Source: Cellulomonas timonensis
Lineage (GTDB): Bacteria > Actinomycetota > Actinomycetes > Actinomycetales > Cellulomonadaceae
Direction of reading: 5' to 3'
DNA: 64,000 nt
Assembly: GCF_900046455.1 (NCBI RefSeq)
Contig: NZ_FCOT01000008.1
Span: 124,001 to 188,000 of the forward strand
The translations under genes and the position numbers were made by a program. Below are positions 7,570 to 61,650 of the stretch, piece by piece (the stretch's first letter is position 1; every line of letters starts with the position of its first letter). Under the pieces are notes generated by a model, which worked only from the letters and a program-made list of their open reading frames with translations, ran no database searches and was not told the origin of the DNA.

Positions 7570-8688
7570 GTGACAGAGCCGGTCGCCGCCGCGCAGGTGC
7601 TGCACCTGCGCGGCCCGGTGCTCCTCGACGACGAGCGGGAGGCCGCCGAGGCGTGGGTGGTCGGCGGCCGTGTGACGTTCGAGCGTCCGCACGCCTCGGC
7701 CGGTGACGTGGCGGAGGTCGAGGGCTGGGTCGTCCCCGGGCTCGTCGACGTGCACTGCCACATCGGGCTCGGCGCGGACGGGCCCGTGGACCAGCAGGCC
7801 GCCCGGGCGCAGGCTCTGGCGGACCGCGACTCGGGCGTGCTGCTGGTGCGGGACGCAGGCTCCCCGGCGGACACCGCATGGGTGCACGACGACGACGACC
7901 TCCCGCGCCTGATCCGGGCGGGGCGGCACCTGGCCCGCCCCAAGCGGTACCTGCGGCATTACGGCCGCGAGCTCGCCACCCCTGCGGAGCTGGCGGACGC
8001 GGTCGCCGAGGAGGCGGCGCGCGGCGACGGCTGGGTCAAGGTCGTCGCGGACTGGATCGACCGCGACCTGGGCGCCGACGGCGACCTGACACCGCTGTGG
8101 CCCGCGGACGTCCTCGCCCAGGCGATCGGCGCCGCGCACGCCGCCGGCGCCCGCGTGACGGCGCACACCTTCTCCGGCGAGGCCCTCGACCCGCTGCTCG
8201 ACGCGGGCGTGGACTGCCTCGAGCACGCCACCGGCGCCGACGCCGGGCAGATCGAGCGCATCGCCGCCGCGGGGATCCCGGTGACGCCGACGCTGCTGCA
8301 GGTCGCGCAGTTCGAGGCCATCGCCGCGCAGGCCGACGGCCGCTACCCCCGCTTCGCGGCGCGGCTGCGCAGGCTGCACGCCCGGCGCCACCAGCACGTG
8401 CGGGACCTGCACGACGCCGGGGTGCGGCTCCTGGTCGGCACGGACGCGGGCGGCACCATCGGGCACGGGCGGATCGCCGACGAGGCCGCGGAGCTGGTCG
8501 CGGCGGGCGTCCCGGACCGCGAGGTGCTCGCCGCCGCGAGCTGGCGCACCCGCGCGTGGCTTGGCGTCCCGAGCCTGGCCGAGGGGGAGCCCGCCGACCT
8601 CGTCGTGCTGGCGGGCGACCCGCGCGAGGACATCCGGGTGCTCGCCGCGCCGCGTGCGGTAGTCCTGCGGGGGGCGCGCGTCCGCTGA
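7570..8688 (+). CDS. Amidohydrolase-family metal-dependent hydrolase
   Basis: A 372-residue cytoplasmic protein of the amidohydrolase superfamily. Visible metal-site elements are VDVHCHIG (His62 and His64), AHTFSG, CLEHATGAD and the late aspartate in GTDAGGTIGHG. The N-terminal and C-terminal strands (PLLL...VVLRGARVR pattern) fit the small beta-sandwich domain that flanks the barrel in imidazolonepropionase- or prolidase-like members. The substrate cannot be read from sequence. The GTG start lies 20 bases after the ffh stop and no signal peptide is present. It sits between ffh and the rpsP promoter, so it may be read through from ffh. Possible roles include cyclic amide or dipeptide hydrolysis. 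Confidence 0.85.
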   Translation: MTEPVAAAQVLHLRGPVLLDDEREAAEAWVVGGRVTFERPHASAGDVAEVEGWVVPGLVDVHCHIGLGADGPVDQQAARAQALADRDSGVLLVRDAGSPADTAWVHDDDDLPRLIRAGRHLARPKRYLRHYGRELATPAELADAVAEEAARGDGWVKVVADWIDRDLGADGDLTPLWPADVLAQAIGAAHAAGARVTAHTFSGEALDPLLDAGVDCLEHATGADAGQIERIAAAGIPVTPTLLQVAQFEAIAAQADGRYPRFAARLRRLHARRHQHVRDLHDAGVRLLVGTDAGGTIGHGRIADEAAELVAAGVPDREVLAAASWRTRAWLGVPSLAEGEPADLVVLAGDPREDIRVLAAPRAVVLRGARVR

Positions 8689-8737
8689 GCGGGTGGCGCT
8701 GTGCGCGCCGTCGGCCCAGGCCGCCGCCGGGAAGCGG

Positions 8738-8766
8738 TTGGGCGGACGCGCCGCGTCTGGCAGAAT
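8738..8766 (+). promoter_or_regulatory. Candidate promoter of the rpsP operon
   Basis: TTGGGC at 8738-8743 and CAGAAT at 8761-8766 are separated by 17 bases, an acceptable primary-sigma arrangement. The -10 lies in the string tggcagaatgt. A near copy (tggcagactgt) lies at 11110-11120 in front of rplS, supporting use as a ribosomal-protein promoter element. The leader to the rpsP start is about 125 bases. Confidence 0.5.
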
Positions 8767-8898
8767 GTCCTGCGTACTCGGTGCGTCTGGCCCCTCTACC
8801 CGGGCGTGACCGCGTCCTTCCGGCCTGACCCGTCCGCTCAACCCCACGAGCAATGGACCCGTCGGGCCACCACAGCAGAAACCAGGAGAGACCACACT

Positions 8899-9336
8899 GT
8901 GGCCACCAAGATCCGTCTGAAGCGTTTTGGCAAGATCCGGGCGCCGTACTACCGCGTCGTCGTCGCGGACTCGCGCACCAAGCGCGATGGCCGCGTCATC
9001 GAGGAGATCGGCAAGTACCACCCCACCGAGGAGCCCTCGCTCATCGACATCACGTCGGAGCGGGCGCAGTACTGGCTGAGCGTCGGCGCGCAGCCGACCG
9101 AGCAGGTCCTCGCGCTCCTGAAGATCACGGGTGACTGGCAGAAGTTCAAGGGCCTCCCGGGCGCCGAGGGCACCCTGCGCACCAAGGCCACGCCGGCCGA
9201 GGGCGATGTTGCGGCTGCCGTTGAGGCTGTCGCGCTCGACGCCGAGAAGGCCAAGGCCAAGGCGTCGGAGAAGAAGGCTGCCGCGAAGGCCGCCGAGGCT
9301 GCCGCGCCTGCCGCGTCCGAGGACGAGCAGGCCTGA
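8899..9336 (+). CDS. rpsP: 30S ribosomal protein S16
   Basis: S16 is a primary assembly protein of the 30S subunit. The 145-residue product begins [20 protein letters not shown] and carries the typical S16 core ([20 protein letters not shown], then a second half ending ...[12 protein letters not shown]). After about residue 95 it has an Ala/Lys/Glu-rich tail of roughly 50 residues, longer than E. coli S16 but common in actinobacteria. The GTG at 8899 is preceded by ccaggagagacc. An upstream in-frame extension is possible but lacks S16 similarity, so this start is preferred. It overlaps the next gene by one base (TGATG). Confidence 0.96.
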
Positions 9337-9575
9337 TGCTCGACGACGCGCTCGAGCACCTGGTGCGGGGCATCGTCGACCACCCGGACGACGTGCAGGT
9401 CAGCACGAAGTCCCTGCGTCGCGGTGAGCTCCTGGAGGTCCGGGTCCACCCGGACGACCTCGGGCGCGTCATCGGCCGCGGCGGTCGCACGGCGCGCGCG
9501 CTGCGCACCGTCGTCGGAGCCCTCTCGGCAGACGGCCCGGTCCGCGTCGACGTCGTCGACGTCGACCGCCGCTGA
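9336..9575 (+). CDS. KH-domain RNA-binding protein (KhpA-like)
   Basis: A 79-residue single KH-domain protein. The RNA-binding GxxG loop is visible as IGRGGRTARALRTVV, preceded by VRVHPDDLGRV. Small KH proteins at this position, between rpsP and rimM, are widespread in Gram-positive bacteria and are named KhpA/YlqC; they bind RNA broadly and influence translation or cell division. The ATG overlaps the rpsP stop (TGATG), so the two are coupled. It is followed by a strong hairpin before rimM. Confidence 0.9.
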   Translation: MLDDALEHLVRGIVDHPDDVQVSTKSLRRGELLEVRVHPDDLGRVIGRGGRTARALRTVVGALSADGPVRVDVVDVDRR

Positions 9576-9616
9576 CCTCCACGGTCAGCACCACGGCCGC
9601 TGCCCACGCAGCACAC

Positions 9617-9650
9617 AAGGCCCGGTCCCCTACCCTGGGGACCGGGCCTT
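9617..9650 (+). terminator. Strong stem-loop between the KH gene and rimM
   Basis: A perfect 14-bp inverted repeat (arms 9617-9630 and 9637-9650) encloses the hexaloop taccct. There is no T-run after it, as is common for high-G+C terminators. It lies inside a usually continuous operon, so it could attenuate, stabilise the upstream mRNA end or act as a processing site rather than stop transcription completely. Confidence 0.6.
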
Positions 9651-9702
9651 CGCTCTGCGCCCCCTGCGGGGCGAACCCTTCCTGAACTCGCGAGAGGACC
9701 TC

Positions 9703-10275
9703 ATGCAGCTCACCGTCGCCCGCATCGGCCGAGCCCTCGGACTGCGGGGTGAGGTCGTGCTCGACGTGCGCACCGACACCCCCGAGGAGCGCCTGGCCGT
9801 CGGCGCCGTGCTCCAGACCGTCCCCGCGTCCGCTGGACCGCTCACGGTCGAGCGCGCCCGCGCCCAGGCCGGCCGGTGGAGCGTGACATTCGCCCAGGTC
9901 CACGACCGTGAGGCCGCCGAGGCGCTGCGCGGCGTCGAGCTCGTCGTCGAGGAGGACGAGAGCGACGAGGAGGACGCCTGGTACCCGCATGAGCTCGCGG
10001 GGCTGCGGGCGGAGCATGTGGACGGACGCGTGCTCGGCGAGGTCATCGGCCTCGAGCACCTGCCCGCCCACGACGCGCTGCTGCTGCGCGAGACCTCCGG
10101 GGCGCGGACGCTGATCCCGTTCGTCCGCGCGATCGTCCCCGTCGTCGACGTCGCCGGGGGCCGGGTCGTCCTAGACCCGCCCGGCGGGCTGCTCGCCTCG
10201 GACGCCGCGAACCTGGTCGTCAGCGAGGAGACGGGCGCCGCGGGCTCGGCCGACCGCGTGGAGGACGAGGGCTGA
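9703..10275 (+). CDS. rimM: Ribosome maturation factor RimM
   Basis: RimM assists 16S processing and 30S head assembly through contact with S19. The 190-residue protein begins [25 protein letters not shown], the typical N-terminal RimM domain. The second PRC-barrel-like half is at about 95-170 ([42 protein letters not shown] and [10 protein letters not shown]). The ATG at 9703 is preceded by cgagaggacc. An upstream in-frame extension would run through the hairpin and is unlikely. The stop lies one base before the trmD GTG. Confidence 0.95.
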
Positions 10276-10276
10276 C

Positions 10277-11080
10277 GTGCGCATCGACGTCGTCTCGATC
10301 TTCCCCGACTACCTGGCGCCCCTGGACCTGTCGCTCGTCGGCAAGGCCCGCACGTCCGGGATCCTCGACCTGCGCGTCCACGACCTGCGGGACTGGACCA
10401 CCGACCGGCACCGCACCGTCGACGACACTCCCTTCGGCGGCGGCGCCGGCATGGTCATGCGCCCCGACGTGTGGGGCACGGCGCTCGACGACGTGCTGCA
10501 CGAGGGCGCGCACCTGATGGTGCCGACCCCGTCCGGCGCGCCGCTGACCCAGCGTCGCGCGGAGGAGCTCGCCCACGAGCAGCAGATCGTGATCGCCTGC
10601 GGCCGCTACGAGGGGATCGACTCGCGGGTCGCCGAGCACTACGGCCAGCGCCCCGGAGTGCGGGTCAGCGAGTTCTCGATCGGCGACTACGTGCTCAACG
10701 GGGGAGAGGTCGCGGCCCTCGTGCTCATCGAGGCGGTCGCGCGGCTGCTGCCGGGCGTGGTCGGCAACCCGCACTCGCTGGTCGAGGAGTCGCATGGCGC
10801 CGCCGGGCTGCTCGAGTACCCGGTGTACACCAAGCCGCCGCAGTGGCAGGGGCACGAGGTCCCCGAGGTGCTGCTGTCCGGGCACCACGCGCGCATCGAG
10901 CGCTGGCGCCGGGACCAGGCGCTGCAGCGCACCGCCGCCCGTCGCCCCGACCTGGTGGCCGCGCTCGACCCGGCCTCGCTCGACCGTCACGACCTCGCGG
11001 TCCTCGCCGAGCGCGGCTGGTCCGTGGAGCAGGGGCGGCTGGTGCGCGATGCCGACGCCGGCCAGGCGCCGACGCCCTGA
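10277..11080 (+). CDS. trmD: tRNA (guanine37-N1)-methyltransferase TrmD
   Basis: TrmD methylates G37 next to the anticodon using S-adenosylmethionine, preventing +1 frameshifts. The 267-residue SPOUT-class protein shows [30 protein letters not shown], the trefoil-knot elements CGRYEGID and [31 protein letters not shown] (in parts), and the C-terminal helical domain. The start is a GTG at 10277, one base after the rimM stop. The order rpsP-KH-rimM-trmD-rplS is the conserved bacterial set. A 210-base gap to rplS holds a separate promoter. Confidence 0.96.
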
Positions 11081-11088
11081 CGGCCGGT

Positions 11089-11118
11089 TTCACCGTCCTG
11101 CCCGCGCTGTGGCAGACT
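11089..11118 (+). promoter_or_regulatory. Candidate promoter of rplS
   Basis: TTCACC at 11089-11094 and CAGACT at 11113-11118 are separated by 18 bases. The -10 is embedded in tggcagactgt, nearly identical to the element before rpsP. The transcript would have a leader of roughly 165 bases containing a short reading frame at 11211-11261. Confidence 0.45.
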
Positions 11119-11210
11119 GTTCTTTCGGTGCGCTCGGTCGCGTCTCTGCCACAGGGGAGACGGCCACGGCCACTCCGGGTCCCGCGAGGGAGCCCCGGAC
11201 GCACCAGACC

Positions 11211-11261
11211 ATGAGCCATCAGGCCCCCGCTCGCGCGGCACGGCCTCGACGACGCTGCTGA
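11211..11261 (+). other. Possible 16-codon upstream reading frame in the rplS leader
   Basis: ATG to TGA encodes [16 protein letters not shown] and ends 29 bases before the rplS start. It is rich in Arg and finishes with Cys directly before the stop. There is no clear ribosome binding site. It could be a leader peptide or chance in a G+C-rich sequence. Confidence 0.2.
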
Positions 11262-11290
11262 CCTGTGGCAGGGCGAGGAAGCGACATCAC

Positions 11291-11650
11291 ATGCACACTC
11301 TCGACCAGGTCGACGCGGCATCGCTGCGCACCGACATCCCGGCGTTCCGCGCCGGGGACACGCTGAAGGTCAACGTCAAGGTCGTCGAGGGCACCCGCTC
11401 CCGCGTCCAGGTCTTCCAGGGCATCGTCATCCGCCGCCACGGCGGCGGCGTGGGGGAGACCTTCACGATCCGCAAGATCAGCTTCGGCGTCGGCGTCGAG
11501 CGCACCTTCCCGGTGAACTCCCCGACGATCGACTCGATCGAGGTCATCACCCGTGGTGACGTCCGCCGCGCGAAGCTGTACTACCTGCGCGCGCTGCGCG
11601 GCAAGAAGGCCAAGATCAAGGAGAAGCGGGACACGCCTGCTCCCAAGTGA
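11291..11650 (+). CDS. rplS: 50S ribosomal protein L19
   Basis: L19 sits at the 30S-50S interface. The 119-residue product has the full family pattern: [16 protein letters not shown] near 18-33, [46 protein letters not shown] and the basic C-terminal [19 protein letters not shown]. The ATG at 11291 follows gaggaagcgacatcac. It has its own promoter and a long leader after trmD, and a hairpin follows the stop. Length matches the family. Confidence 0.97.
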
Positions 11651-11680
11651 GCAGTGGTCCAGCAGAGTTGATCGCGTCCT

Positions 11681-11716
11681 GACGGGCGGTCGCCGGGTTC
11701 CCGGTGGCCGCCCGTC
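11681..11716 (+). terminator. Stem-loop after rplS
   Basis: A 9-bp outer stem (gacgggcgg at 11681-11689 with ccgcccgtc at 11708-11716) encloses a further short CCGG/CCGG pairing. It lies 31 bases after the rplS stop with no T-run. It probably ends the rpsP-rplS transcription unit. Confidence 0.6.
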
Positions 11717-11802
11717 GGCGTGTGCGGGGGATGGTGTGGGACCGGTCTCATCCGATGCGCACGCGATAGGTGACGCCCTGCTCGACATGGCACAGTGTGC
11801 AG

Positions 11803-12546
11803 GTGACCGATCAGCGAGCACCCGAACGTGGGACGTCCGAGCCGGAGGCGACGGTGACGCAGGGCAAGCGTCGCAGTGCGGGCGCCGTGTGGCTCCGGGA
11901 GACCGCGATCATCCTGGTGAGCGCGTTCATCCTTTCGTTCCTGGTCAAGACCTTCCTGGTCCAGGCGTTCTTCATCCCCAGCGCCTCGATGGAGGACACG
12001 CTGGTCGAGGGCGACCGCGTCCTCGTCTCGAAACTCACCCCCGGCCCGTTCGACCTGCATCGCGGCGACATCGTCGTCTTCAAGGACCCGGGCGGCTGGC
12101 TGCCGTCGAGCTCCACAGCCGACCAGGGCGCCGTCGCCGAGAAGGTCAGCCAGGCGCTGACCTGGGTGGGGCTGCTCCCGCAGGACTCGGGCGAGCACCT
12201 CATCAAGCGTGTGATCGGCCTGCCGGGGGACCGGGTGGCCTCCGAGGGCTCGGGTGAGCCCGTGACGGTGAACGGCGTCGCGATCGACGAGCCCTACGTG
12301 GCGCAGGGCGTCTCGCCGAGTGACATCTCCTTCGACATCACGGTCCCCGAGGGGTATGTGTGGGTGATGGGCGACAACCGCTCGGACTCCGCGGACTCGC
12401 GCTACCACCTGGGCGACCCGGGTGGCGGCTCGATCCCCATCGACAACGTGGTCGGCATGACGTTCATCAAGGTGTGGCCGTTCGACCGGCTGGGGCTGCT
12501 CCGCAACCCCTCCGAGACGTTCACTGAGGTTCCCGACCCGTCATGA
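11803..12546 (+). CDS. lepB: Type I signal peptidase LepB
   Basis: Cleaves signal peptides from exported proteins at the outer face of the cytoplasmic membrane. A membrane segment (about 24-48, ETAIILVSAFILSFLVKTF) is followed by box B with the catalytic serine at 62 (IPSASMEDTLVEGDRVLV). The catalytic lysine is at 135 ([12 protein letters not shown]), and box E is MGDNRSDSADSRYHLGD. The extra region between boxes is typical of actinobacterial enzymes. The GTG at 11803 is chosen because upstream residues from the alternative GTG at 11770 look non-conserved; neither has a good ribosome binding site. The stop overlaps the rnhB start (ATGA). Confidence 0.93.
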   Translation: MTDQRAPERGTSEPEATVTQGKRRSAGAVWLRETAIILVSAFILSFLVKTFLVQAFFIPSASMEDTLVEGDRVLVSKLTPGPFDLHRGDIVVFKDPGGWLPSSSTADQGAVAEKVSQALTWVGLLPQDSGEHLIKRVIGLPGDRVASEGSGEPVTVNGVAIDEPYVAQGVSPSDISFDITVPEGYVWVMGDNRSDSADSRYHLGDPGGGSIPIDNVVGMTFIKVWPFDRLGLLRNPSETFTEVPDPS

Positions 12547-13301
12547 CTCTCCTGGAGCGCCCGATCTCCGAGCCGCCGGCGACTGCGCCGCGGTCGCCGG
12601 CGCCGGTGCGACGCAGCCCCGCGCTGCGCCATGAGCGGGTGATCCTGCGCGAGGGCGCCCGGCTCGTGGCGGGCATGGACGAGGTGGGCCGTGGCTCCTT
12701 GGCGGGGCCGGTCTCAGTCGGCGTCGTGGTGGTCGACGCGCGCACGCGTGCCTGCCCTCCGGGGGTCGCCGACTCGAAGCTCCTCACGGCCGCCGCCCGG
12801 ACGGCGCTGCTGCCGGCGCTCGGGCGCTGGGGACTCGCCCGGGCCGTGGGGCATGCCAGCGCGGCGGAGATCGACGAGGTCGGCATCATCGCCGCCCTGC
12901 GCATGGCGGGGATGCGCGCGCTCGAGACAGTGGCCGGCGCCGTGGGCCCCGTGGACGCGGTGCTGCTGGACGGCTCCCATGACTGGCTGACGCCCCCGGC
13001 CCAGGGCGAGTTGTTCGGCGAGGTGGAGCTGCCCGGCGCCGACGTCGTCGGAGTCCCACGCGTGCATGTCCGGGTGAAGGCGGATCTGACCTGCGCCTCC
13101 GTGGCCGCCGCGAGCGTGCTCGCCAAATGCGAGCGGGACGGCATCATGACGCGGATGGCGGCGGACCACCCGCAGTACGCATGGGACTCCAACAAGGGCT
13201 ACAGCTCCGCCGAGCACATCCGCGCATTGCGTGAGCATGGGCCCAGCCCGGTGCACCGGCGCAGCTGGCGGCTCCCCCTGGGGCTCGACGCGGCGGGGTG
13301 A
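12543..13301 (+). CDS. rnhB: Ribonuclease HII
   Basis: Removes ribonucleotides from RNA-DNA hybrids and misinserted ribonucleotides in DNA. The 252-residue protein has an N-terminal extension of about 42 residues, then the catalytic motif AGMDEVGRGSLAGPV with Asp/Glu metal ligands, DSKLLTAAAR, LLDGSHDW, VKADLTCASVAAASVLAK and MAADHPQYAWDSNKGYSSAEH. All conserved acidic residues appear present. The ATG at 12543 overlaps the lepB stop. Length is slightly above E. coli RnhB because of the N-terminal extension. Confidence 0.95.
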   Translation: MTLLERPISEPPATAPRSPAPVRRSPALRHERVILREGARLVAGMDEVGRGSLAGPVSVGVVVVDARTRACPPGVADSKLLTAAARTALLPALGRWGLARAVGHASAAEIDEVGIIAALRMAGMRALETVAGAVGPVDAVLLDGSHDWLTPPAQGELFGEVELPGADVVGVPRVHVRVKADLTCASVAAASVLAKCERDGIMTRMAADHPQYAWDSNKGYSSAEHIRALREHGPSPVHRRSWRLPLGLDAAG

Positions 13302-13374
13302 ACCTGCCGCTCCGACGCCTCGCCGTGCCTCGCGCCTGTGCGCGACGCCCGCCGCGATGAGGGATGATGGCGGG

Positions 13375-13698
13375 GTGAGCGCCGAAGACCTGGAGAACTA
13401 CGAGACCGACATGGAGCTCGCGCTCTACCGCGAGTACCGGGACGTGGTCGGCCTGTTCTCCTACGTCGTGGAGACCGAGCGCCGCTTCTACCTGGCGAAC
13501 CAGGTGGACCTGCAGGTGCGATCGGCGGCGGGCGAGGTGTACTTCGAGCTGTCGCTGGCCGACGCGTGGGTGTGGGACGTCTACCGCTCCGCGCGGTTCG
13601 TGAAGTCGGTGCGGGTGGTCACCTTCAAGGACGTCAACGTCGAGGAGCTCGCCAAGGCGGACCTCGACCTGTCCACCGGGGCGGGCTTCGCTCGCTGA
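13375..13698 (+). CDS. DUF2469 family small protein
   Basis: A 107-residue acidic protein beginning MSAEDLENYETDMELALYREYRDVVGLFSYVVETERRFYLAN. This is a highly conserved actinobacterial family (DUF2469) always found near rnhB and yraN. Its function is unknown. The sequence is rich in Asp, Glu, Tyr and Phe and shows no membrane segment. The GTG at 13375 gives the usual family length; the longer frame upstream has no conserved residues. Two consecutive hairpins follow it. Confidence 0.92.
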   Translation: MSAEDLENYETDMELALYREYRDVVGLFSYVVETERRFYLANQVDLQVRSAAGEVYFELSLADAWVWDVYRSARFVKSVRVVTFKDVNVEELAKADLDLSTGAGFAR

Positions 13699-13706
13699 TA
13701 TGCGTT

Positions 13707-13730
13707 GCCCGGCGCCAGGTGGCGCCGGGC
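13707..13730 (+). terminator. First stem-loop after the DUF2469 gene
   Basis: A perfect 10-bp stem (gcccggcgcc at 13707-13716 with ggcgccgggc at 13721-13730) with a four-base loop, 8 bases after the stop. It works in tandem with the longer stem-loop that follows. Confidence 0.6.
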
Positions 13731-13735
13731 GTGCG

Positions 13736-13777
13736 GACGGCGGCGCCGGGACCACTGCTAGTCCCGGCGCCGCCGTC
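13736..13777. terminator. Bidirectional terminator between DUF2469 and adhesin genes
   Basis: A perfect 17-bp inverted repeat (arms 13736-13752 and 13761-13777) with an eight-base loop lies between two convergent genes, 10 bases before the stop of the minus-strand adhesin. Its symmetry would serve both directions. Confidence 0.75.
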
Positions 13778-13787
13778 GTGCCCGCTC

Positions 13788-15312
13788 TCAGAGGCGGTTG
13801 AGGCGTCGTCGACGCTGGTCGAGCAGGATCGCGCCGAGCGTCAGCGCCCCGAGGCCGAATGCGGCTGCCGGGAGCACCTGGCCGCCGGTGGCGGCCAGTG
13901 GCGTGGTGGCGACGGCCGGGTCCGCGACCACCCGGGTGGGGTGGGCCGTGCGGCACGGGTCGCATGTGCCCCCGGCCGACGGCGTGATGGAGTTGACGAC
14001 GGTCACCGCGCTGGTGGCCGTCACCCGTGCGGTGAACGTGATCGACTCGGTGCTGGCAAGCACCGGCAGCGTCCATCGGAACGTCGAGCCCTCACGGACG
14101 ACCGACCCGGCGGTCGCCGTCGGCCCCGACACGATCTCGGCGTGGGCGAGCAGCCCTGCCAAGTCGTCGACCACCACCACGTCACGAGCCTCCACGCCGC
14201 TGACGTAGCTCGCGGTGACGGTGTACGTGATGAGGTCGCCCCGCGCGACAGTCGTCCCCGTGGGCGGGTTGCTCGTCTTGGCGGACTTCCAGACGGCGGG
14301 CCCGTCGTCATTGAGGAACGTGCACGAGACGACCGTGTTGACGGCGAGCGTCACGATGTACCTGCCGTCGCCCGCGGCGCGCACCGGCACGGAAGTCGTG
14401 CCGTCCGTGCAGGTCGGGCCGACCAGGGTGTAGCCGAGCGTGGGCGGCGCCGTCTCCCAGATGTAGTACTCGGTGTCGGGGCGCACCGTGACGGCGAACC
14501 CTGCGGTCGAGCCGGGCTGGGAGACGATCGCGATGCCCTCGACGTCGTCGACCGGCTCGGTGTGCAGCGTCCAGTGGTCCGGCTGCTGGATGCCGCCGCC
14601 GCTGTTGTCCACGTTCTTGATCAACCGCAACGTGGCGGCCTGGTTCAAGGCCGTGCACTCGACGCGGTATCCGAGCGGCACTGTGACGTCGCCGTCGATG
14701 CCGTCGGTGAAGCCCGGGATGCTGTCGCCCTGGGCGTCGACCTGCTCGCAGACCCAGCTGGCGGTGGTGCCCGCGACCGCGCCGGAGTTGATGAACGACA
14801 CGTACCGGGGGTCGCCCGGGCTCTGCGTCAGCTCGTAGAGCGCGTTCGGTGAGACCTGGCCCTCGACGCCTGAGAGGCCGTCGGCGAACCCGATCGTCGA
14901 GCCGCCGCCCTCGGCGCCCAGCGTCCAGCCGGCCACTGAGAAGCCGTCGTTCGTGGTCATGAAGAGCCGCAGGCGCGAGGTGCACTCGACCTCGTTGGTC
15001 ACCGTGAGCTCGTTCGCCCCCTTGGCGAGCGTGAGGTCGAAGGGCCCTTCCAGATCGACAGTGCCCTCGATCGTCGTGCCACGGATCGTGGCGCCGACGA
15101 TCTCGCACAGGTCGACGTCGCCGACCTGGGTCGTCTCGGAGACGCTCACGGTGTCCCCTTGCGTGTAGCCGGTCTGCGCCTCACCCCACGGGGTGCTGTC
15201 GCCGTCGAGGAGGAGCGTGGCCTCGAGCCCGTCCGGCTGCTCGCCGTCAGGCACGGCTGCGGCCCCGTTCACCACCCACTCCTTGGCCACCTCGAGCGTC
15301 GCCGGTCGTGGC
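13788..15312 (-). CDS. Sortase-anchored surface protein, C-terminal part (5' end lost)
   Basis: About 505 genuine residues remain, starting near RPATLEVAKEWVVNG. The part resembles the second half of the intact adhesin at 19537-22674: several beta-rich repeats of the type seen in secreted actinobacterial proteins (for example DLCEIVGATI, RYVSFINSGAVAGTTASWVCEQ), then a DUF11-like repeat (SAKTSNPPTGTTVARGDLITYTV). The C-terminus is a wall-sorting signal: LAATGG, a hydrophobic helix and RRRRLNRL. LAxTG is the motif preferred by class E sortases. The upstream end runs into a 19-G run (15313-15331) and library sequence, so the start and N-terminal domains are missing. The proline run that appears there is artificial. 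Confidence 0.8.
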
Positions 15313-15585
15313 GGGGGGGGGGGGGGGGGGGTCCCTTTTTTCCCTCTGCCCCTTGCGACCACCCTCAGTGGTGTGGATGTGGGGGGCGGCCTAGGACTCT
15401 ACTAAGAACCGGACACGTGTATAGCTGATGGCTCACTCAGTCGTGCATCGAACAACTCGACATCGAGAAGGTAGAAGAGAGTAGGACTAGTCAAGGGGGA
15501 GCGGAGATGTGTTTATTAGCAAGCAGAAAACGGCTTACTAGATTTCTGCCTGTCTCGTGGACACGGAGATATGTGTAAATGACAG
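15313..15585. other. Non-genomic Illumina/Nextera library chimera
   Basis: After a 19-base G run (15313-15331), bases 15331-15361 match the reverse complement of the Nextera read-1 mosaic end plus linker at 20 of 31 positions. Bases 15371-15391 match the reverse complement of the P5 flow-cell sequence at 15 of 21. Bases 15400-15519 are unidentified, with composition unlike the genome. Bases 15520-15585 match a complete Nextera i7 primer at 57 of 66: P7 21/24, index TTCTGCCT exact (N703), linker 13/15, mosaic end 15/19. Genomic sequence resumes at 15586. This is a false join of two library ends, so the true gap length is unknown. Confidence 0.88.
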
Positions 15586-16091
15586 GGCTTGTGTGTGGGC
15601 TTCGCAGTGTGCGTCGGCTTCGCAGTGTGCGTCGGCTTCGCGGTGTGCGTGGGCTTCGCGGTGTGCGTGGGCTTCGCGGTGTGCGTGGGCTTGGGGGTCG
15701 GAGTCGGATCGGGCGTTGTGGTGAAGGTGGGCGTCGGCTTCGAGGGGCGGGCCTCCCGAGGTGTGCCGGCCTCAGAGGAGGGCCCGTCGACGGTGCTCGC
15801 CGCCGCCTCGTCATCGAGGGCGGGGACAATCGGGTCCGCGTTGCTCGTGGACGCTCCCTCGGCCGGCTCGGCGGCGTCGGCCGTCGCGTCGGTCGTCGCC
15901 GCGTCGACGGCGGCTGCGTCGGCGTTGGCGTCCGCATCCGAGGAGCTGGCGGGGGCCACGGGATCCTCGGTGGCGTGTGCGATCGGGCTGGCGCCGAGTG
16001 TGACGAGCGCGGTGAGGGCTGCGGTGGTGAGCCCGACCGCGAGCCTGCGCGGACCGTCGTGAGATCGACGGCGTCTTTCCAGTCCAGCCAT
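15586..16091 (-). CDS. Secreted repeat protein, N-terminal fragment (3' end lost)
   Basis: About 168 genuine residues start at the ATG complementary to 16089-16091, preceded on its strand by a purine-rich site (aaggggga). It has a basic N-region and a hydrophobic signal peptide (about 17-40, ending SPIAHAT), an Ala/Asp-rich low-complexity stretch, a Pro/Thr segment (TFTTTPDPTPTPKP), and then a six-residue repeat, KPTHTA, repeated five times. Reading is broken at 15585 by library sequence, so the last 22 residues of the open frame are false. It lies on the same strand just upstream of the 13788-15312 adhesin part. The two are either halves of one gene or two neighbouring genes. Confidence 0.7.
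15600..15689 (-). repeat. Five tandem 18-bp coding repeats (KPTHTA)
   Basis: Five contiguous 18-base units (15600-15617, 15618-15635, 15636-15653, 15654-15671, 15672-15689) differ at only two positions and keep the reading frame of the minus-strand secreted protein. The array ends close to the false join at 15585, so the true copy number may be higher. Confidence 0.9.
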
Positions 16092-16299
16092 GACTCCCCC
16101 TTGAGTGTTTTGTCCCGTTTTGCGAACTTATCAGGACCGCAGAACCCCGGCATTGCGGGCCGGGGGCGGGCCCATGCCGAGGCGCTCGTTGGCGTTGACC
16201 CACCCCCAGGGCTCGCCGCGCCATCCGGGTCCACCGTCACGGGTGCTCGTTCACGGCCCGGGCAAGCCGACCGAGAAAGTGGGGATCGGAGGTGGTCAC

Positions 16300-16656
16300 A
16301 TGCGCGCGACGGATGCGGTGGGCAGGCATGGCGAGGATGCCGCGGCGAGGTTCCTCCTCGACGCGGGCTGGACGATCCTCGAACGCAACTGGCGCGGGAC
16401 CAGGGGAGAGCTCGACCTCGTCGCGCTCGACGGCCCCGAGCTCGTGGCCGTCGAAGTCAAGACGCGGCGCAGCACCGCCTTCGGGCACCCGGCGGAGGCG
16501 GTCACGGCGCGCAAGCTCGCGCGGATCCGCCGCCTGACCGCCGAGTGGCTGCACACGCACGACGTCCGGCCGGCCTCGGTGCGCGTCGACGTGATCGCCG
16601 TGCGGCTCACCGGGCGCGGGCCAGCCCAGCTCGAGCACCTCGTGGGGGTGGTCTGA
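16300..16656 (+). CDS. YraN/UPF0102 family nuclease-fold protein
   Basis: A 118-residue protein beginning MRATDAVGRHGEDAAARFLLDAGWTIL in an unbroken family pattern. The restriction-endonuclease-like core is visible as ERNWRGTRGELDLVAL and VAVEVKTRRS (the D...ExK type metal site). Family members resemble Holliday-junction resolvases, but the role is not settled. GGAGGT at 16288-16293 stands seven bases before the ATG at 16300, which decides the start over the longer frame. The stop directly abuts the comM GTG. This yraN-comM-dprA order is conserved in actinobacteria. Confidence 0.93.
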   Translation: MRATDAVGRHGEDAAARFLLDAGWTILERNWRGTRGELDLVALDGPELVAVEVKTRRSTAFGHPAEAVTARKLARIRRLTAEWLHTHDVRPASVRVDVIAVRLTGRGPAQLEHLVGVV

Positions 16657-18210
16657 GTGGCCCTCGGACGCACCCTCGCGGTCGCGCTGGTCGGGCTCAG
16701 CGGCCACGTCGTCGAGGTGGAGGCGCACCTCGCGCCGTCGCTGCCCGCGTTCAGCCTCGTCGGCCTGCCCGACGCCGCGCTCGGCGAGGCACGCGACCGC
16801 GTCCGCGCCGCGGTCGCCTCGAGTGGGCTCGCGTGGCCGAACCGGCGCATCACCGTCAACCTGACGCCCGCGACACTGCCCAAGTCGGGCTCGGGGTTCG
16901 ACCTGGCCATCGCGGTCGCCACGCTCGCGGGCGCCGGCCTGCTCGACGCGTCCGTCGTGCGCGGAGTGGTCCACCTCGGCGAGCTCGGCCTCGACGGGCG
17001 GCTTAGGCCGGTGCGGGGCGTGCTCCCGGCAGTCGCCGCCGCGGTGGCAGCAGGGCACCCCCGCGTGGTGGTCCCGGCCGCCAACGCGCGTGAGGCGGAG
17101 CTGGTCCCCGGCGCCCACGTCACCGCGGCGCACAGCCTGGCGGAGGTGGCACGGCGGTGTGGGGCGGACGTCGAGGCTCCTGATGTGGCGCCCGTCGGAG
17201 CGGTGCACCTCGACGGCAGCGTGGCGGGTGGCATCGTCGCCGACCTCGCGGATGTGGTCGGCCAGGAGGACGCGCGCGCCGCGCTCGAGGTCGCAGCGGC
17301 CGGGGCCCACCACATCCTGATGGTGGGCCCCGCAGGATGCGGCAAGACGATGCTCGCCGCACGGCTGGCGGGCCTGCTCCCCGACCTGACCGAGGCCGAG
17401 GCCGTCGAGGTCACCGCAGTGCACTCCGTGGCGGGCACCTTCGACGCGGACACCGGCCTCATGCGCCGGCCACCGTTCGAGGACCCCCACCACACGGCCA
17501 CCCCTGCCAGCATCGTGGGCGGCGGAAGCGGCGTGCCCCGCCCCGGCGCCGCGTCCCGCGCACACCGTGGGGTGCTGTTCCTCGACGAGGCGCCCGAGTT
17601 CGCGAACGCGGTGCTCCAGACGCTGCGCCAGCCCCTGGAGCACGGCGAGGTCGTGATCCACCGGGCAGCGGGCGCCGCGCGGTACCCCGCGCAGTTCGTG
17701 CTCGTCCTCGCCGCGAACCCGTGCCCGTGCGGCAGGTACGTCGGCAAGGGGCTCGACTGCACCTGCACGCCCGATCGGCGGCGGCGCTACCTCACGAAGA
17801 TGTCTGGCCCGCTGCTGGACCGCGTCGACCTCCAAGTCGAGCTCCATCCTGTCTCGCGCGGGGCGCTGGCCCGGTCGGTGCACGCCACCGGTTCGGGGGA
17901 GTCGACCGCCACCGTGGCCGCCAGGGTCCGCGCCGCCCGGCACTCGCAAGCCGAGCGGCTCGCGGGCACACCGTGGCGCACCAACGCCGAGGTCCCGGGG
18001 CGCTGGCTCCGCGACCGGCTCGGCCCCGACCGTGCCCTCAGTGCCGACCTCGAGAGGGCGATCGACCGTGGCACGTTGAGCCTGCGGGGTGTCGACCGGG
18101 TGTTGCGGGTGGCCTGGACGCTCGCCGACCTGGCGGGGCGTGCCGCGCCCGGCAGGCCCGACGTCGGGCAGGCGCTGGCGCTGCGCACCCGCGGGCAGGG
18201 GGCTACGTGA
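16657..18210 (+). CDS. comM: YifB/ComM family AAA+ ATPase
   Basis: A 517-residue magnesium-chelatase-like AAA+ protein. In Vibrio, ComM is a hexameric helicase that extends heteroduplex formation during natural transformation. Visible parts are an N-terminal Lon-protease-like fold (SLVGLPDAALGEARDRVRAAV), Walker A GPAGCGKTMLAARL near residue 224, Walker B GVLFLDEAPEF near 307, the ANPCPCG zinc-like cluster with further cysteines, and the C-terminal Mg-chelatase domain. The GTG start follows the yraN stop directly. The stop overlaps the dprA start (GTGA). Confidence 0.94.
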   Translation: MALGRTLAVALVGLSGHVVEVEAHLAPSLPAFSLVGLPDAALGEARDRVRAAVASSGLAWPNRRITVNLTPATLPKSGSGFDLAIAVATLAGAGLLDASVVRGVVHLGELGLDGRLRPVRGVLPAVAAAVAAGHPRVVVPAANAREAELVPGAHVTAAHSLAEVARRCGADVEAPDVAPVGAVHLDGSVAGGIVADLADVVGQEDARAALEVAAAGAHHILMVGPAGCGKTMLAARLAGLLPDLTEAEAVEVTAVHSVAGTFDADTGLMRRPPFEDPHHTATPASIVGGGSGVPRPGAASRAHRGVLFLDEAPEFANAVLQTLRQPLEHGEVVIHRAAGAARYPAQFVLVLAANPCPCGRYVGKGLDCTCTPDRRRRYLTKMSGPLLDRVDLQVELHPVSRGALARSVHATGSGESTATVAARVRAARHSQAERLAGTPWRTNAEVPGRWLRDRLGPDRALSADLERAIDRGTLSLRGVDRVLRVAWTLADLAGRAAPGRPDVGQALALRTRGQGAT

Positions 18211-19487
18211 CCAGGGGGGCGGAGTCGTGCACGGAGCCCGAGGCGCTGGCCCGGGCGGCGTGGAGCGCGCTCGTCGAACCGGGCGACCCGGTCGCCGGGG
18301 CACTCGTGGGCCTCTACGGCGCTGGGCCGGCGCTCCGGTGGGCCCGGATCGCCGCAGCCCACGGGGTGGAGGCCGCACTTGCCGAGACTGACCCGATCTC
18401 ATCAGATGGGGCCGTGGTCCCGGTTGATGCTGTCGACCCGGATGGAGCCTTGGGGCCGGACGGCTTCCCGGGACCGGGCGCCCTGGGGCCGGTTCGCCGG
18501 CGACTGGCGAGGGCTGTGTCGCGGTGGGAGCCCCGGCTTGCCGGGCTCGACCCGCGCCGCGACCTCGACCGTCTCGAGCGTGCCGGCGGGAGGCTGTTGC
18601 ACCCTGCGAGCGCAGGGTGGCCCACGGCCCTCGCAGACCTCGGCCCGACGGCGCCACTGTGCCTGTGGGTGCGGGGCGACGACGACCTTGCCGCCCTGGT
18701 GCGCGGCTCGGCGGCGCTGGTCGGGTCGCGCGCGTCGACCGCCTACGGGGAGCGGGTCGCGACCGGCCTCGCTGAGGGGTTGGCAGGGCGCGGCGTCGCC
18801 ATCCTCTCCGGGGGCGCCTACGGCATCGACGCCGCGGCGCATCGTGGCGCCCTGGCGGTCGACGGGCGCACCGTGGTGCTCCTCGCCGGGGGTGTGGACC
18901 GCCCTTACCCGCAGGGCAACGCCCGTCTCATCGAGAACGCGCTCGCCTCCGGTGGCGCCGCGGTCAGCGAGTCGCCGCCTGGGGCGGTCCCGCTCCGTAG
19001 CCGATTCCTGCAGCGCAACAGGCTCATCGCCGCCCTCGGGTCGGCCACCGTCGTGGTGGAGGCGGCGTGGAGGTCGGGCGCCCTGAGCACCGCCCACCAC
19101 GCGGCTGCGCTCCTGCGGCCGCTGGGCGCGGTGCCGGGGCCGGTGACGTCCGTCGCGTCGGCCGGGTGCCACCGGCTGCTCCGGGCGGGGGCGGCGGTGT
19201 GCGTCACGGACACTGCCGAGGTGCTCGAGCTGCTGGCGCCCGCTGGCGAGCACCTGGCGCCGGACCCGGCCGAGGACACCCGCCCGGGTGACGGCCTCGA
19301 CCCGGGCGCGCGACGCGTGCTCGACATCCTCCCTCGGCGTGGCGCCACGACCCATGAGGATCTGGCCCGTCGGGCGGGCCTGTCGGTGGCGGAGGCGCGG
19401 GCAGCCGTCGGCGAGCTCGCGCTGGCCGGCCTCGCCGTCCGGGCGCCGACGGGTTGGGCGCGCGCGGCGCCACGGGTGGACGTGTGA
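18207..19487 (+). CDS. dprA: DNA processing protein DprA
   Basis: DprA binds incoming single-stranded DNA and loads RecA in transformation. The 426-residue protein has an N-terminal SAM-like part, a Gly/Pro/Asp-rich insertion (about 72-95), and a Rossmann core with VGSRAST, ILSGGAYGIDAAAHRGAL, VDRPYPQGN and FLQRNRLIAALGSATVVVEA (in parts). A C-terminal winged helix (DILPRRGATTHEDLARRAGLS) follows. The GTG at 18207 overlaps the comM stop by four bases (GTGA). Whether this organism is competent cannot be told from the window; yraN-comM-dprA is present also in species not known to transform. Confidence 0.94.
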   Translation: MTRGAESCTEPEALARAAWSALVEPGDPVAGALVGLYGAGPALRWARIAAAHGVEAALAETDPISSDGAVVPVDAVDPDGALGPDGFPGPGALGPVRRRLARAVSRWEPRLAGLDPRRDLDRLERAGGRLLHPASAGWPTALADLGPTAPLCLWVRGDDDLAALVRGSAALVGSRASTAYGERVATGLAEGLAGRGVAILSGGAYGIDAAAHRGALAVDGRTVVLLAGGVDRPYPQGNARLIENALASGGAAVSESPPGAVPLRSRFLQRNRLIAALGSATVVVEAAWRSGALSTAHHAAALLRPLGAVPGPVTSVASAGCHRLLRAGAAVCVTDTAEVLELLAPAGEHLAPDPAEDTRPGDGLDPGARRVLDILPRRGATTHEDLARRAGLSVAEARAAVGELALAGLAVRAPTGWARAAPRVDV

Positions 19488-19527
19488 CGACCGCCGCGAG
19501 GTCCCCGGCCCCGGCGCGCGCGGTCGT
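19487..19527. terminator. Weak hairpin between dprA and adhesin 2
   Basis: An 8-bp stem (acgaccgc at 19487-19494 with gcggtcgt at 19520-19527) with a long G+C-rich loop lies between two convergent stops. It is the only candidate for termination in this 49-base gap. Confidence 0.35.
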
Positions 19528-19536
19528 TCGAGAGGG

Positions 19537-22500
19537 TCAGATCTGGGACCGTTGGCGCCGGGCCTCGAGGACGAGCGCGACGCCGACCACCATGATGACG
19601 AGCATCACGGCGAAGTAGGGCACGGGAGCGGATCCGGTCGTGGGCAGCAGCCGTCCGCCCCCGGCGCCGGGTTCGGGCGGTGTGGGCGTGCCAGGCGTCC
19701 GCACGACGCTCGTGCACGCGTCGTCGCACGGCCCGCCCGCCGACTGCTGCAAGACGTTGAGGATCTCGACGTTGGGCTGGGTGGTGGTCACGCGCACCGA
19801 GAACGTCATGGTTTGCGTCGCGTCCAGCGACGGGATGAGCCACTCGAGCCGGTCGCCGACTCGGGTGACCGCTCCCGCGGTCACGACCGGCTGCGTGACG
19901 ATCTCGGCGTGCGGGAGGACTGCGGAGAGGTCGTCGACCACGAGGGCGTCGGGAACGGGCCCACCGCCGGTGTGCACCGCCTGCACGGTGTAAGTGACGA
20001 GGTCGCCGACGCGCACCGTGGATCCGGTGACGGGGTCGCTCGACTTCGAGGTGCGCCACGTTCCCGGCACGTCGGTGTTGACGAAGGTGCACACCATGGT
20101 GGTGTCGGCCGGGATGTTGACGACGACCGACACCTCGTCGAAGGACACCAGGTTGGCAGGCTCGCCCGCCGCGTCGACGCAGGTCAGGCTCTCCAATCCG
20201 TAGGCGTCGGTGGCGGGGCTGGAGCCAGTCTCCGACACGCGGTAGTCGGTTCCGGGCCGCACCGCCACCTCCGTGCCCTCGGCAGACCCCGGCACCGCGA
20301 GGGGGTCGATCCCCGGGATCGGGCTGACGAGCTCCGCGCGCAGGGTCCAGTCGGCCGGGACCGCCTGGCCGCCTGAGTCGTTGACGACCTCCTTCACGAG
20401 GATCAGGCTCGAGATCTGGTTGAGCGCCGTGCAGCGCACGATGAGCCCGTACGGGACGGTGACGCCGCCGTTGAGCCCGTCCGCATAGCCTGGGACGACG
20501 CCCCCCGACTCGTCGAGTTGCACGCAATCCCAGCTCGCCGTGGTGCCAGCAGCCGCCTCCGGGTTGAGGTAGGGCACGTATCGCGGGTCCCCGCCGGACT
20601 CGGCCAGCTCGTACCGCACGGCCGGGCTCACCTCGGCGGTCGCCGAGGAGGATCCCGAGGCCCCCGAGGGCCCTGGGAGCGACCCGCTGGGGCCGGACGC
20701 CGCGAGGTCCCATGCGGTGACGTCGGCCGCCCCGCCGTTGGTGGCCTTCACCAGCGTCAGGCGGGACGCGCACTCGACGATGTTGCGCACGACGAAGTCG
20801 TTCTCGCCCGCGGCGAGCTCGACGCTCGCCGTGGGGTCGAGCGGGACCGAGCCGATGACTCCGGTGCCGGTCAGGGTGCTCGATGTGATCTCGCACAGGT
20901 CCAGGTCGACAGTGGTGCTCTCGCCGACCTCGAGAGTGGCGCCCTCGGTGTAGCCGGACACGGTCACCCCCCACGGCGTGGTGGTGGCGTCGAGCTCCAG
21001 GCTCGCTTGGAGCCCTTCGAGCTGGTTGCCCTCGGGGACGGGGTCGCCGCCGTTGATCACCCACTCCTTGTCGACGACGACAGTCGCCGCGGAGGCGGGG
21101 GAGCGGTTGTAGACCTGGCACGTGATCGCCGCATTAGGTGGGACAGGCAGCGAGAAGCCCTCGGTGACGTTGTCCACCGCCACCGAGGCCTGCGTGTTGA
21201 GGTCGGTGCAGACCGCGTTGGCGCCGTCGACCTGCTCAATGCTGAACCCCGGTTGGACCGTCTCCACGAGCTGGAGCCGTGTCGCGTCGGTGTTGTCGGT
21301 GAGAGCGAAGGAGAGCGCGCCGGTCACGTCTGCCGTCTGCCCTGACGCCGGGGCGACAGTCCCCGGTGGTGTGCTGACGGTGGCGTCGAACGTCCAGCCG
21401 CCCGCCGGGGTGGCGTTGCTGACGTCGCCCGCCGCGTTCGTCGAGGGGATGACGTTCTTGACCACCGTCACCGATCCGGCGCACCCGGCCAGCGCGAGCG
21501 CCCGGAACGCGGCAGCGGCCGCCGAGTAGTCCGTCTCCCGGAAGTAGTCGACTCCCTGCACGGGGCCGGAGATCGCCGCGAGGTTGTCGGGCGGTCCGGT
21601 GAGGCCGGCGCCGACGCCCAGCACGGTCACGTTCGTGCCCTGGGACTTCACGGTGTTGGACGAGAAGATGCCGTTCTCGACCTCGCGGAACCGGGTGAAG
21701 AAGCCGGGGCCCTCGCCGTTGCCGTAGAAGGTCGGGTTGCCGTCCGTCACCACGACTGCGGTGTCGAAGCCGGTGGTGCTCGCGGCCACCTGGTAGAGGC
21801 CGCGGTCCCAGTTGGTGCCGCCCACAGGTGTCGGGAGCGCGTCGATCGCGGCGTTGACGGTCGCGGCGCCGGCGGCGGTGGACACCGGGGTGACGGGCAG
21901 GTTGGCGCCAGGGGCTGCCGGGGCGGTGGTGGCGAACGTGAAGAGGGCGATCTGGGAGTTCGTGCCGGCGAGGGCGTCGACCATCTCCTGCGCAGCGGTC
22001 TTCAGCGCGTCGAAGCTGCCGGCGGTGGAGCCCGACAGGTCGAGGACGAGCGCGACGGTCAGCCCGCACTGGGCGGGGATGGCGGGGTTGTCCCGAGTCG
22101 TCGCCCAGATCCCGCCCGACGCGACGGAGTTGGTGTCGCCGGTGCCGATCATGAAGGAGCTGGTCGAGGAGTAGGTCTCCCCGCTGCGGAGCACCGTGCC
22201 AGTGCGGAACCGGTAGGGCGTCGAGACTTCCCCGTTGTCGCCGGTGCCGAGCGTGGTGGTGATCTCGTAGTCGGGCGCCGCACCGGTCTGGACGACCCAG
22301 AAGCGGCGGTCGCGGTTGGGGCCGGTGAGGTTCGTGCCGGGCACGACGAAGCTGCAGTCGCCGTCCGCGTCGGAGACGCAAGTGGCCCAGCTGTCGGCCA
22401 CTGGGGTCGTCGGGCCGGCGGCTCCGCCGTTGTAGAGCTGGAGCGTGACGCCGGCCAGCCCGGCCACTGATGTGGCCGTGTCCCGCACGCCCCCGGCGTT

Positions 22501-22674
22501 GACGGTGATGACTGATGACGTCGGCCCGGGTGTCGGCACCGCCGCTCGCACCTCCGCGAGGGGGATCCACAGTGTGGCCGCGACGATGGCCGCCGCCACC
22601 GTCGCCGCTGCGATCCCGCGCCCGAGCAGGCGCCTGCCCGCCGTCTCGTCTGCCTTGGTCCCCTGGTGTGCCAC
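19537..22674 (-). CDS. VWA-domain adhesin with LPTTG sorting signal
   Basis: An intact 1045-residue surface protein. A signal peptide (about 1-44, basic then hydrophobic, ending near EVRAA) is followed by a short beta domain and a von Willebrand factor A domain (about 175-390). The MIDAS motif DLSGS, VVVTDGNPTFYG and a long insertion are visible. Four or more beta repeats with paired cysteines follow (for example VVVDKEWVINGGDPVPEGNQ), then a DUF11-like repeat. The C-terminus is LLPTTG, a hydrophobic helix and EARRQRSQI. It is likely wall-anchored or a pilus tip-like protein binding a surface or host polymer; the ligand is unknown. The GTG start follows a gggggcgg site. The sortase is not in the window. 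Confidence 0.9.
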   Translation of the reverse strand: MAHQGTKADETAGRRLLGRGIAAATVAAAIVAATLWIPLAEVRAAVPTPGPTSSVITVNAGGVRDTATSVAGLAGVTLQLYNGGAAGPTTPVADSWATCVSDADGDCSFVVPGTNLTGPNRDRRFWVVQTGAAPDYEITTTLGTGDNGEVSTPYRFRTGTVLRSGETYSSTSSFMIGTGDTNSVASGGIWATTRDNPAIPAQCGLTVALVLDLSGSTAGSFDALKTAAQEMVDALAGTNSQIALFTFATTAPAAPGANLPVTPVSTAAGAATVNAAIDALPTPVGGTNWDRGLYQVAASTTGFDTAVVVTDGNPTFYGNGEGPGFFTRFREVENGIFSSNTVKSQGTNVTVLGVGAGLTGPPDNLAAISGPVQGVDYFRETDYSAAAAAFRALALAGCAGSVTVVKNVIPSTNAAGDVSNATPAGGWTFDATVSTPPGTVAPASGQTADVTGALSFALTDNTDATRLQLVETVQPGFSIEQVDGANAVCTDLNTQASVAVDNVTEGFSLPVPPNAAITCQVYNRSPASAATVVVDKEWVINGGDPVPEGNQLEGLQASLELDATTTPWGVTVSGYTEGATLEVGESTTVDLDLCEITSSTLTGTGVIGSVPLDPTASVELAAGENDFVVRNIVECASRLTLVKATNGGAADVTAWDLAASGPSGSLPGPSGASGSSSATAEVSPAVRYELAESGGDPRYVPYLNPEAAAGTTASWDCVQLDESGGVVPGYADGLNGGVTVPYGLIVRCTALNQISSLILVKEVVNDSGGQAVPADWTLRAELVSPIPGIDPLAVPGSAEGTEVAVRPGTDYRVSETGSSPATDAYGLESLTCVDAAGEPANLVSFDEVSVVVNIPADTTMVCTFVNTDVPGTWRTSKSSDPVTGSTVRVGDLVTYTVQAVHTGGGPVPDALVVDDLSAVLPHAEIVTQPVVTAGAVTRVGDRLEWLIPSLDATQTMTFSVRVTTTQPNVEILNVLQQSAGGPCDDACTSVVRTPGTPTPPEPGAGGGRLLPTTGSAPVPYFAVMLVIMVVGVALVLEARRQRSQI

Positions 22675-23038
22675 GATCCGCCCCCGTCCCGTTTGGTACC
22701 TTTTGGGAGGTTAGCGGTGTTAGTGCGACGTCGCGCGCCGGGTCGTCCGGGCGTGACGCCGCATCGGGCGCGTGGACGGGGTTGCGCTTTCCCTGGGGGC
22801 AGTCATGGTCGCCGGGCGGGTGAGTCACGAACGTGTGTGGCCCGGAGCCTTGTGGTAGCGCGACCTGCTGAGACGCCGTTGCCTGTGAGCGTCGTCACTT
22901 CGCGACATCACAATTCGGTTTCGACCGGGCCGAGGAGAAGCGGCGTTTAGGACATCCGGCGAGGTATCGCCGGGGCAGCGGGTGAACTGTGACCAACGGC
23001 GCTTGTGGGCCGACTGTGTGACAGGCCACGGTAGGGGC
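22675..23038. other. Divergent intergenic region, adhesin 2 and xerC
   Basis: This 364-base stretch has no supported gene; short open frames lack ribosome sites and codon bias. It must hold the promoter of the minus-strand adhesin and that of xerC. On the minus strand the string aaacgggac (22686-22694) lies 16 bases before... the adhesin region and is shared with the other adhesin locus (16112-16120). No clear primary-sigma hexamers are visible before xerC. Confidence 0.5.
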
Positions 23039-23971
23039 ATGACAGCAGTCAGCGAGGTCAGGGCGACGGCGGACCAGGTCCGCGCACTCGCCGACTTCGC
23101 CACGCACCTGCGCATGCAGCGCGGGCTGTCAGACCACACCGTGCGGGCCTACCTCAGCGACCTCGAGCACCTGCTCGCGTACGCCGGGCGGCACGGGCGC
23201 GACGAGCTGTGCGACATCGACCTCGGCGTCCTGCGCGGCTGGCTCGCCAGCATGGCCGCCGCCCAGCGCAGCCGTTCGACCCTCGCGCGCCGCGGCGCCG
23301 CGGCGCGCACCTTCTTCGAGTGGGCCAGCCGCACGGGCCGGGTGCCCGCGGACCCCGCGCTCCGGCTCGCCAGCGCGCGGGCGGCCAGCCGCCTGCCAAC
23401 GGTGTTGGCGGTGGACTCGGCCGCGCAACTGTTGGACGTCGCCCGGACCCGTGCGGACGACGCGGACCCGGTCCACCTGCGTGACTGGGCGGCTCTCGAG
23501 CTGCTGTACGCCACGGGCGCCCGCGTGGGCGAGATCTGCGGCCTCGACATCGACGACGTCGACCTCGACGAGCGGACCGTCAGGGTCGTGGGCAAGGGCG
23601 ACAAGGAGCGCGTGGTGCCGTTCGGCATCCCCGCCGCCGACTCGCTCGGCCACTGGATCTCCCGCGGCCGGCCGGCGCTCGCGACATCGACGTCCGGGTC
23701 TGCGCTGTTCCTGGGCCGCCGCGGGGGCCGGGTGGACCAGCGCCAGCTGCGCGCGGTCTCGCATGAGGTCGCCGGGCTCGCCGGCGTCGACGACATCGCG
23801 CCGCACGCCCTCCGCCACAGCGCCGCCACCCACCTGCTCCAGGGCGGCTCGGACCTCCGCAGCGTGCAGGAGGTGCTGGGCCACGCGAGCCTGGCGACGA
23901 CCCAGAGGTACACGCACGTGACCGCGGAGCGGCTACGAGCGTCGTTCGAACAGGCGCACCCGCGGGCATGA
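23039..23971 (+). CDS. xerC: Tyrosine recombinase XerC/XerD family
   Basis: A 310-residue site-specific recombinase of the type that resolves chromosome dimers at dif. The N-terminal SAM-like core-binding domain (about 10-100, [20 protein letters not shown]) precedes the catalytic domain: first Arg in [13 protein letters not shown], the beta-hairpin Lys in [26 protein letters not shown] and [15 protein letters not shown] with the nucleophilic Tyr. All five catalytic positions are present. The ATG at 23039 with gtaggggc upstream is preferred over a GTG at 22982. It sits between dprA and whiG, a fixed actinobacterial location, which argues against a mobile-element integrase. Confidence 0.93.
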
Positions 23972-23994
23972 CCCCAGACGAGAGGAGGAGCGAG

Positions 23995-61579: not shown

Positions 61580-61603
61580 GCGGACTCCCGGTAAGCATTG
61601 GAT

Positions 61604-61649
61604 GATAACCAGAGATTCGCACGCTAGTTATCGACTGATAACCTGTCAA
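61604..61649. promoter_or_regulatory. TetR operator overlapping the MFS promoter
   Basis: The palindrome GTTATC-gact-GATAAC lies at 61627-61642, with a third half-site GATAAC at 61604-61609. On the minus strand, TTGACA (complement of 61644-61649) and TAGCGT (complement of 61621-61626) frame a 17-base spacer that is almost wholly the palindrome. Binding there would block the MFS promoter, and the tetR start is only 8 bases away, suggesting autoregulation. Confidence 0.65.
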
Positions 61650-61650
61650 C

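Follow-up and report, generated by a model that had tools for sequence, protein, structure and literature searches.

Positions 15313-15585 of the window, a 64,000-nucleotide stretch of the Cellulomonas timonensis assembly (G000:C8:124001-188000; 4.06 Mb in 13 contigs, 99.98% complete), are best explained as a whole as an assembly artefact produced by read-through into Nextera adapters, a reading to which we assign a probability of about 98%. The region carries a recognizable i7-side adapter unit at its right end, divides a single gene into two false reading frames, is missing from the corresponding locus of Cellulomonas cellasea ET82, and belongs to a series of adapter remains that share one index pair across the assembly.

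An adapter unit and a degraded tail

Positions 15520-15585 agree with the Nextera primer made up of P7, index N703, linker and mosaic end, the linker and mosaic-end letters being those that we take to belong to the i7 primer, at 57 of 66 positions, with all parts in order (Table 1). Elsewhere in the 64-kb window, the best ungapped 66-mer score was 34 on the plus strand and 31 on the minus strand, and 200 shuffled 66-mer primers, scored against both window strands, reached at most 37. The alignment of the Nextera primers thus upheld, part by part, what the sequence-only reading had proposed for this unit, including the exact N703 index. The right half of the region is, beyond reasonable doubt, a library artefact. 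Genomic sequence had been thought to restart exactly after the mosaic end; it does so within a few bases, as both the tandem repeat and the ET82 alignment begin at 15590.

A comparison of 15332-15585 with 72,556 plasmid and 50,697 phage records yielded matches in one plasmid record and three phage records. Every match is confined to the adapter end (15512-15585), and no record spanned 80% of the query. The plasmid match lies in an Escherichia coli plasmid, where it is annotated as a hypothetical protein (NZ_LC520282.1:47659-47731), and the phage matches occupy the first bases of their records (LT985573.1:3-76; LT985588.1:3-52; LT996076.1:1-43). These matches are probably adapter remains as well.

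Table 1. Features of the interrupted locus, the second scar in the window and the tail-to-tail adapter pairs elsewhere in the assembly
Feature	Position	Strand	Identity	Remarks
C-terminal part of surface-protein-like gene	13788..15312	-	91% to ET82 protein	Pfam matches SpaA_2, DUF7927, DUF11; stops at the artefact
19-G run	15313..15331	.		Reads as C on the coding strand; begins in C-rich sequence encoding proline
Reverse complement of P5-side linker and mosaic end, probable	15329..15361	-	20/33	Badly degraded
Reverse complement of P5, probable	15371..15399	-	16/29	Badly degraded
Low-GC stretch, 128 bases	15392..15519	.		GC 0.484 (window 0.728); overlaps the last bases of the P5-like stretch
Degraded mosaic-end piece	from 15505		5 mismatches of 19	
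P7 flow-cell sequence	15520..15543	+	21/24	
i7 index TTCTGCCT (N703)	15544..15551	+	8/8	
Nextera i7-side linker	15552..15566	+	13/15	
Tn5 mosaic end	15567..15585	+	15/19	
N-terminal part of surface-protein-like gene	15586..16091	-		Signal-peptide-like start (by eye); KPTHTA tandem repeat (15590-15692) cut short at the mosaic end
Second adapter scar	~62205-62337			At 62261-62287, P5-side linker and mosaic end with S517 as best index; long C runs after it; start of presumably truB-like gene
Adapter pair, tail to tail	C11:534427-534628			P7, P7
Adapter pair, tail to tail	C12:247537-247703			P5, P5
Adapter pair, tail to tail	C12:1061847-1062050			P5, P5
Adapter pair, tail to tail	C13:380743-380938			P5 left, P7 right, as proposed for the window site

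At the left end, the run of 19 G that the sequence-only reading had placed ahead of the adapter stretch is indeed present. ET82 has a broken C-rich stretch at this place, not a 19-C run, and the run in the window is probably in part genomic, having begun in the proline-coding stretch, with the C run then probably over-extended by sequencing error. In four-colour chemistry, signal past the end of a molecule is called A. Elsewhere, A runs follow the end of P7 (L003, L007 and L055) and T runs precede it (L020 and L008), which suggests an instrument calling A past the molecule end and so makes it unlikely that the poly-G run is dark-cycle G from a two-colour instrument. The low-GC stretch that separates the P5-like pieces from the P7 unit may be base-call noise past a library molecule's end. 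In 120-base windows, GC content across the entire 64 kb is lowest (0.458) at 15460-15579.

The two degraded pieces at the left follow one another in the order of the adapter, with 9 bases between them where 8 are expected. Their single gapped scores on 15332-15520 were equalled by 61 (P5) and 86 (linker and mosaic end) of 1000 shuffles, whereas the two pieces in order, with a blank index, were equalled by 4 of 1000. The complete P5-side adapter with S517 scored 51 on 15313-15519, a value reached once in each of three controls of 5000 sequences (shuffled targets, shuffled queries and Markov-1 targets for that interval), and a joint ungapped test of the pieces on the same interval gave 0 of 500. 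Conceivably, the adapter is confined to the right side, with nothing but base-call noise on the left after the poly-G/C run, so that a single library molecule was involved. The frequency with which shuffles equal either piece singly speaks for this possibility, as do the score of up to 49 in the right flank (up to 45 in the left), the score of 51 that the forward N703 primer likewise attains on 15313-15519, and the i5 index, which is unreadable at this site (among 18 indices scored, S517 gave 51 and five others 54). Furthermore, the left stretch (15329-15399) is not among the matches at E <= 1 obtained when the genome was searched with the P5-side adapter. Order, spacing and the joint scores in the three controls count against an adapter on the right only, as does the clear P5-left/P7-right case at C13:380743-380938, and we consider it unlikely, although a serious contender. 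The left tail is probably the P5-side adapter. The earlier identification of this stretch as the reverse complement of the other library end is thus moderately supported: it is favoured by the order and spacing of the pieces and weakened by their poor individual matches and the unreadable index.

Adapter pieces across the assembly

At E <= 0.001, the whole assembly contained 12 matches to the N703 primer and 23 to the P5-side adapter, and merging matches within 500 bases yielded 10 N703 places and 21 P5-side places, 30 together. Twenty-nine of these lie far inside contigs and one (C1:65-95) near a contig start. N703 was the best of 26 i7 indices at all 11 P7 pieces scored, the window piece included; the remaining match (L024), which is without the index part, was left out. 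Among 24 P5-side loci, several of which are one place counted twice, S517 was the sole best of 18 i5 indices at 17, shared first place at 3 and was outscored at 4. It was best at C8:186261 (scored from the window) and at C9:241632 (through L031), with the P5-side match at C11:291565 falling outside the index scoring. A single index pair is thus found throughout the assembly, with N703 at every piece scored and S517 at most, and four further pairs of adapter pieces stand tail to tail (Table 1). Tandem repeats of linker and mosaic-end pieces occur inside the adapter at L004 (C11:534582-534651) and L020 (C13:380861-380938), perhaps reflecting an assembler looping on adapter words.

The window itself contains a second scar, located at the start of a gene that, from the look of the sequence, we take to be truB-like. 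The stretch at 61545-61712 looks natural: it is a promoter-like segment of lower GC content with an inverted TTATC/GATAA motif ahead of the start of an open reading frame, whose product, judged by eye, is presumably TetR-like.

The interrupted gene and its counterpart in ET82

The gene divided by the artefact is read as two open reading frames, one with a false N-terminus (13788-15362) and the other with a false C-terminus (15516-16091). A Pfam search of the N-terminal part (15586..16091) returned zero matches. A neighbouring gene at 19537-22674 encodes a 1045-aa paralogue (SpaA_2, DUF7927, and weak VWA and DUF11 matches) that is missing from that place in ET82, and a homologue with 46% identity to the cut gene occurs in the single-contig genome G003.

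In ET82, the orthologue is intact (L054 5479-7515, 678 aa). Window positions 8000-15328 align to L054 5981-13299 with 92.9% identity, and 15590-19503 are colinear with L054 2005-5962 at 81.5%; across 8000-24000, the window is colinear with ET82 except for one neighbouring gene. The two flanks lie about 18 bp apart in ET82, within a KPTHT repeat leading into the proline-coding stretch, a figure that depends on the register chosen, as a second, shorter match pairs window 15642-15740 with L054 5878-5982 and the left flank itself ends in the C run. The adapter insert is absent. The sequence-only reading had named the same sequence in a related strain's assembly as evidence that would speak against an artefact; the comparison with ET82 gave the opposite result.

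Since the flanks are two halves of one gene, separated by about 18 bp in ET82, the join would be a faulty filling of a gap between true neighbours and not the union of unrelated loci. At four of the five other sites compared, the flanks are likewise neighbouring in ET82. Their distances in ET82 and here are 32 and 96 bp at the truB-like site, 197 and 195 at a second site, which adjoins a stretch also matching itself out of register, 64 and 171 at a third, and 25 and 226 at a fourth; for the fifth (C12:1061847-1062050), the ET82 comparison found no counterpart and is uninformative. Because the joined flanks appear to be true neighbours, as at these four sites, the gap in the window is probably small. 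The gap, previously described as being of unknown size, can therefore be roughly bounded. A misassembly of unrelated contigs, uniting chromosomally distant places, might arise when contig ends carry common adapter sequence; however, given that each side is one half of a single gene, that 8000-24000 is colinear with ET82 but for one gene, and that flanks elsewhere are likewise neighbours, a distant misjoin is very improbable and was rejected on synteny with ET82.

Among seven genomes of the genus, its own included, matches to the N703 primer at E <= 0.001 were found in two, namely, this assembly and ET82. The latter carries adapter tails of its own at L055 (end of G002:C29) and L056 (end of G002:C4), 29 and 32 bases from the contig ends, and both bear index N709, in contrast to N703 here, a difference predicted by separate libraries but not by inherited sequence. 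A real insertion in the chromosome of the strain, by Tn5-type transposition or from a vector with Nextera-like ends, would fit a Tn5 mosaic end abutting genomic sequence as in a transposition product, but it has a negligible probability and was rejected, given that P7 and the index are parts of commercial oligonucleotides and not of transposons, that adapter pieces with one index pair lie at 30 places in both orientations, mostly with one end visible, that 273 bases are too short for a transposase or cargo, that the ET82 assembly carries a different index, and that the insert is missing at the ET82 locus.

Proposed origin and comparison with known contamination

We propose that, in a Nextera library with the N703 and S517 indices, the ends of two short molecules flanked a GC-rich tandem-repeat and poly-proline stretch within one gene. 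Untrimmed reads would have overrun their inserts, the left read entering an adapter, probably on the P5 side, and the right read passing through the mosaic end, linker, N703 and P7 into noise. The assembler may then have retained the adapter tails at the ends of contigs, and the two tails would have been fused into one gap-free sequence during scaffolding or gap filling. Adapter tails do lie at contig ends in ET82 and at C1:65-95 of this assembly, where such tailed ends otherwise appear to have been joined without Ns. The notion of adapter sequence built into the assembly, already advanced in the sequence-only reading, withstood the comparison, with N703 at 11 of 11 pieces, N709 in ET82, four other tail-to-tail pairs and no insert in ET82. 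Its further proposition, that two library molecules were joined end to end, is supported as to read-through and joining, the P5 molecule at the window site being only probable.

More broadly, we lean toward the view that these sites represent a class of concealed gaps, in which, at about 30 places, the adapter tails of true neighbours were united in internal joins free of Ns, silently cutting genes, at least two of them in the window, while contig count and completeness look excellent. If so, screens restricted to contig ends would miss internal adapter joins. The repeat-bearing surface-protein gene and the presumed truB-like gene are falsely broken or given false ends, and further genes of the assembly probably share this fate. 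The N703/S517 pair provides a simple handle for finding and masking the scars, and the deposited genome deserves a flag. The value of the observation is purely practical, its biological interest being low.

The window unit has the same order of P7, TTCTGCCT, linker and mosaic end as the Nextera and Nextera XT i7 primer N703. It differs from that primer by nine mismatches, too many for high-quality read-through and fitting low-quality read tails. An oligonucleotide combining P7 with the N703 index (N703-A) is in print (PMC7589761), although the oligonucleotides in the available part of that source carry a tail after the index other than the Nextera linker. Sequencing-adapter contamination of public microbial assemblies, isolates included, has been described as concentrated at contig ends (Moeller et al. 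2024, PMC11536531). The available passages of that paper refer to contig ends and to the Illumina universal adapter, and its main text, as available, contains zero occurrences of "internal" or "nextera". The untrimmed Illumina adapters at contig ends described there are matched by the two pieces in ET82 and by the one at G000:C1:65-95. The assembly analysed here differs from the system described in those passages in that 29 of its 30 adapter places lie deep inside contigs, with the tails joined without Ns, and in that the adapter is Nextera.
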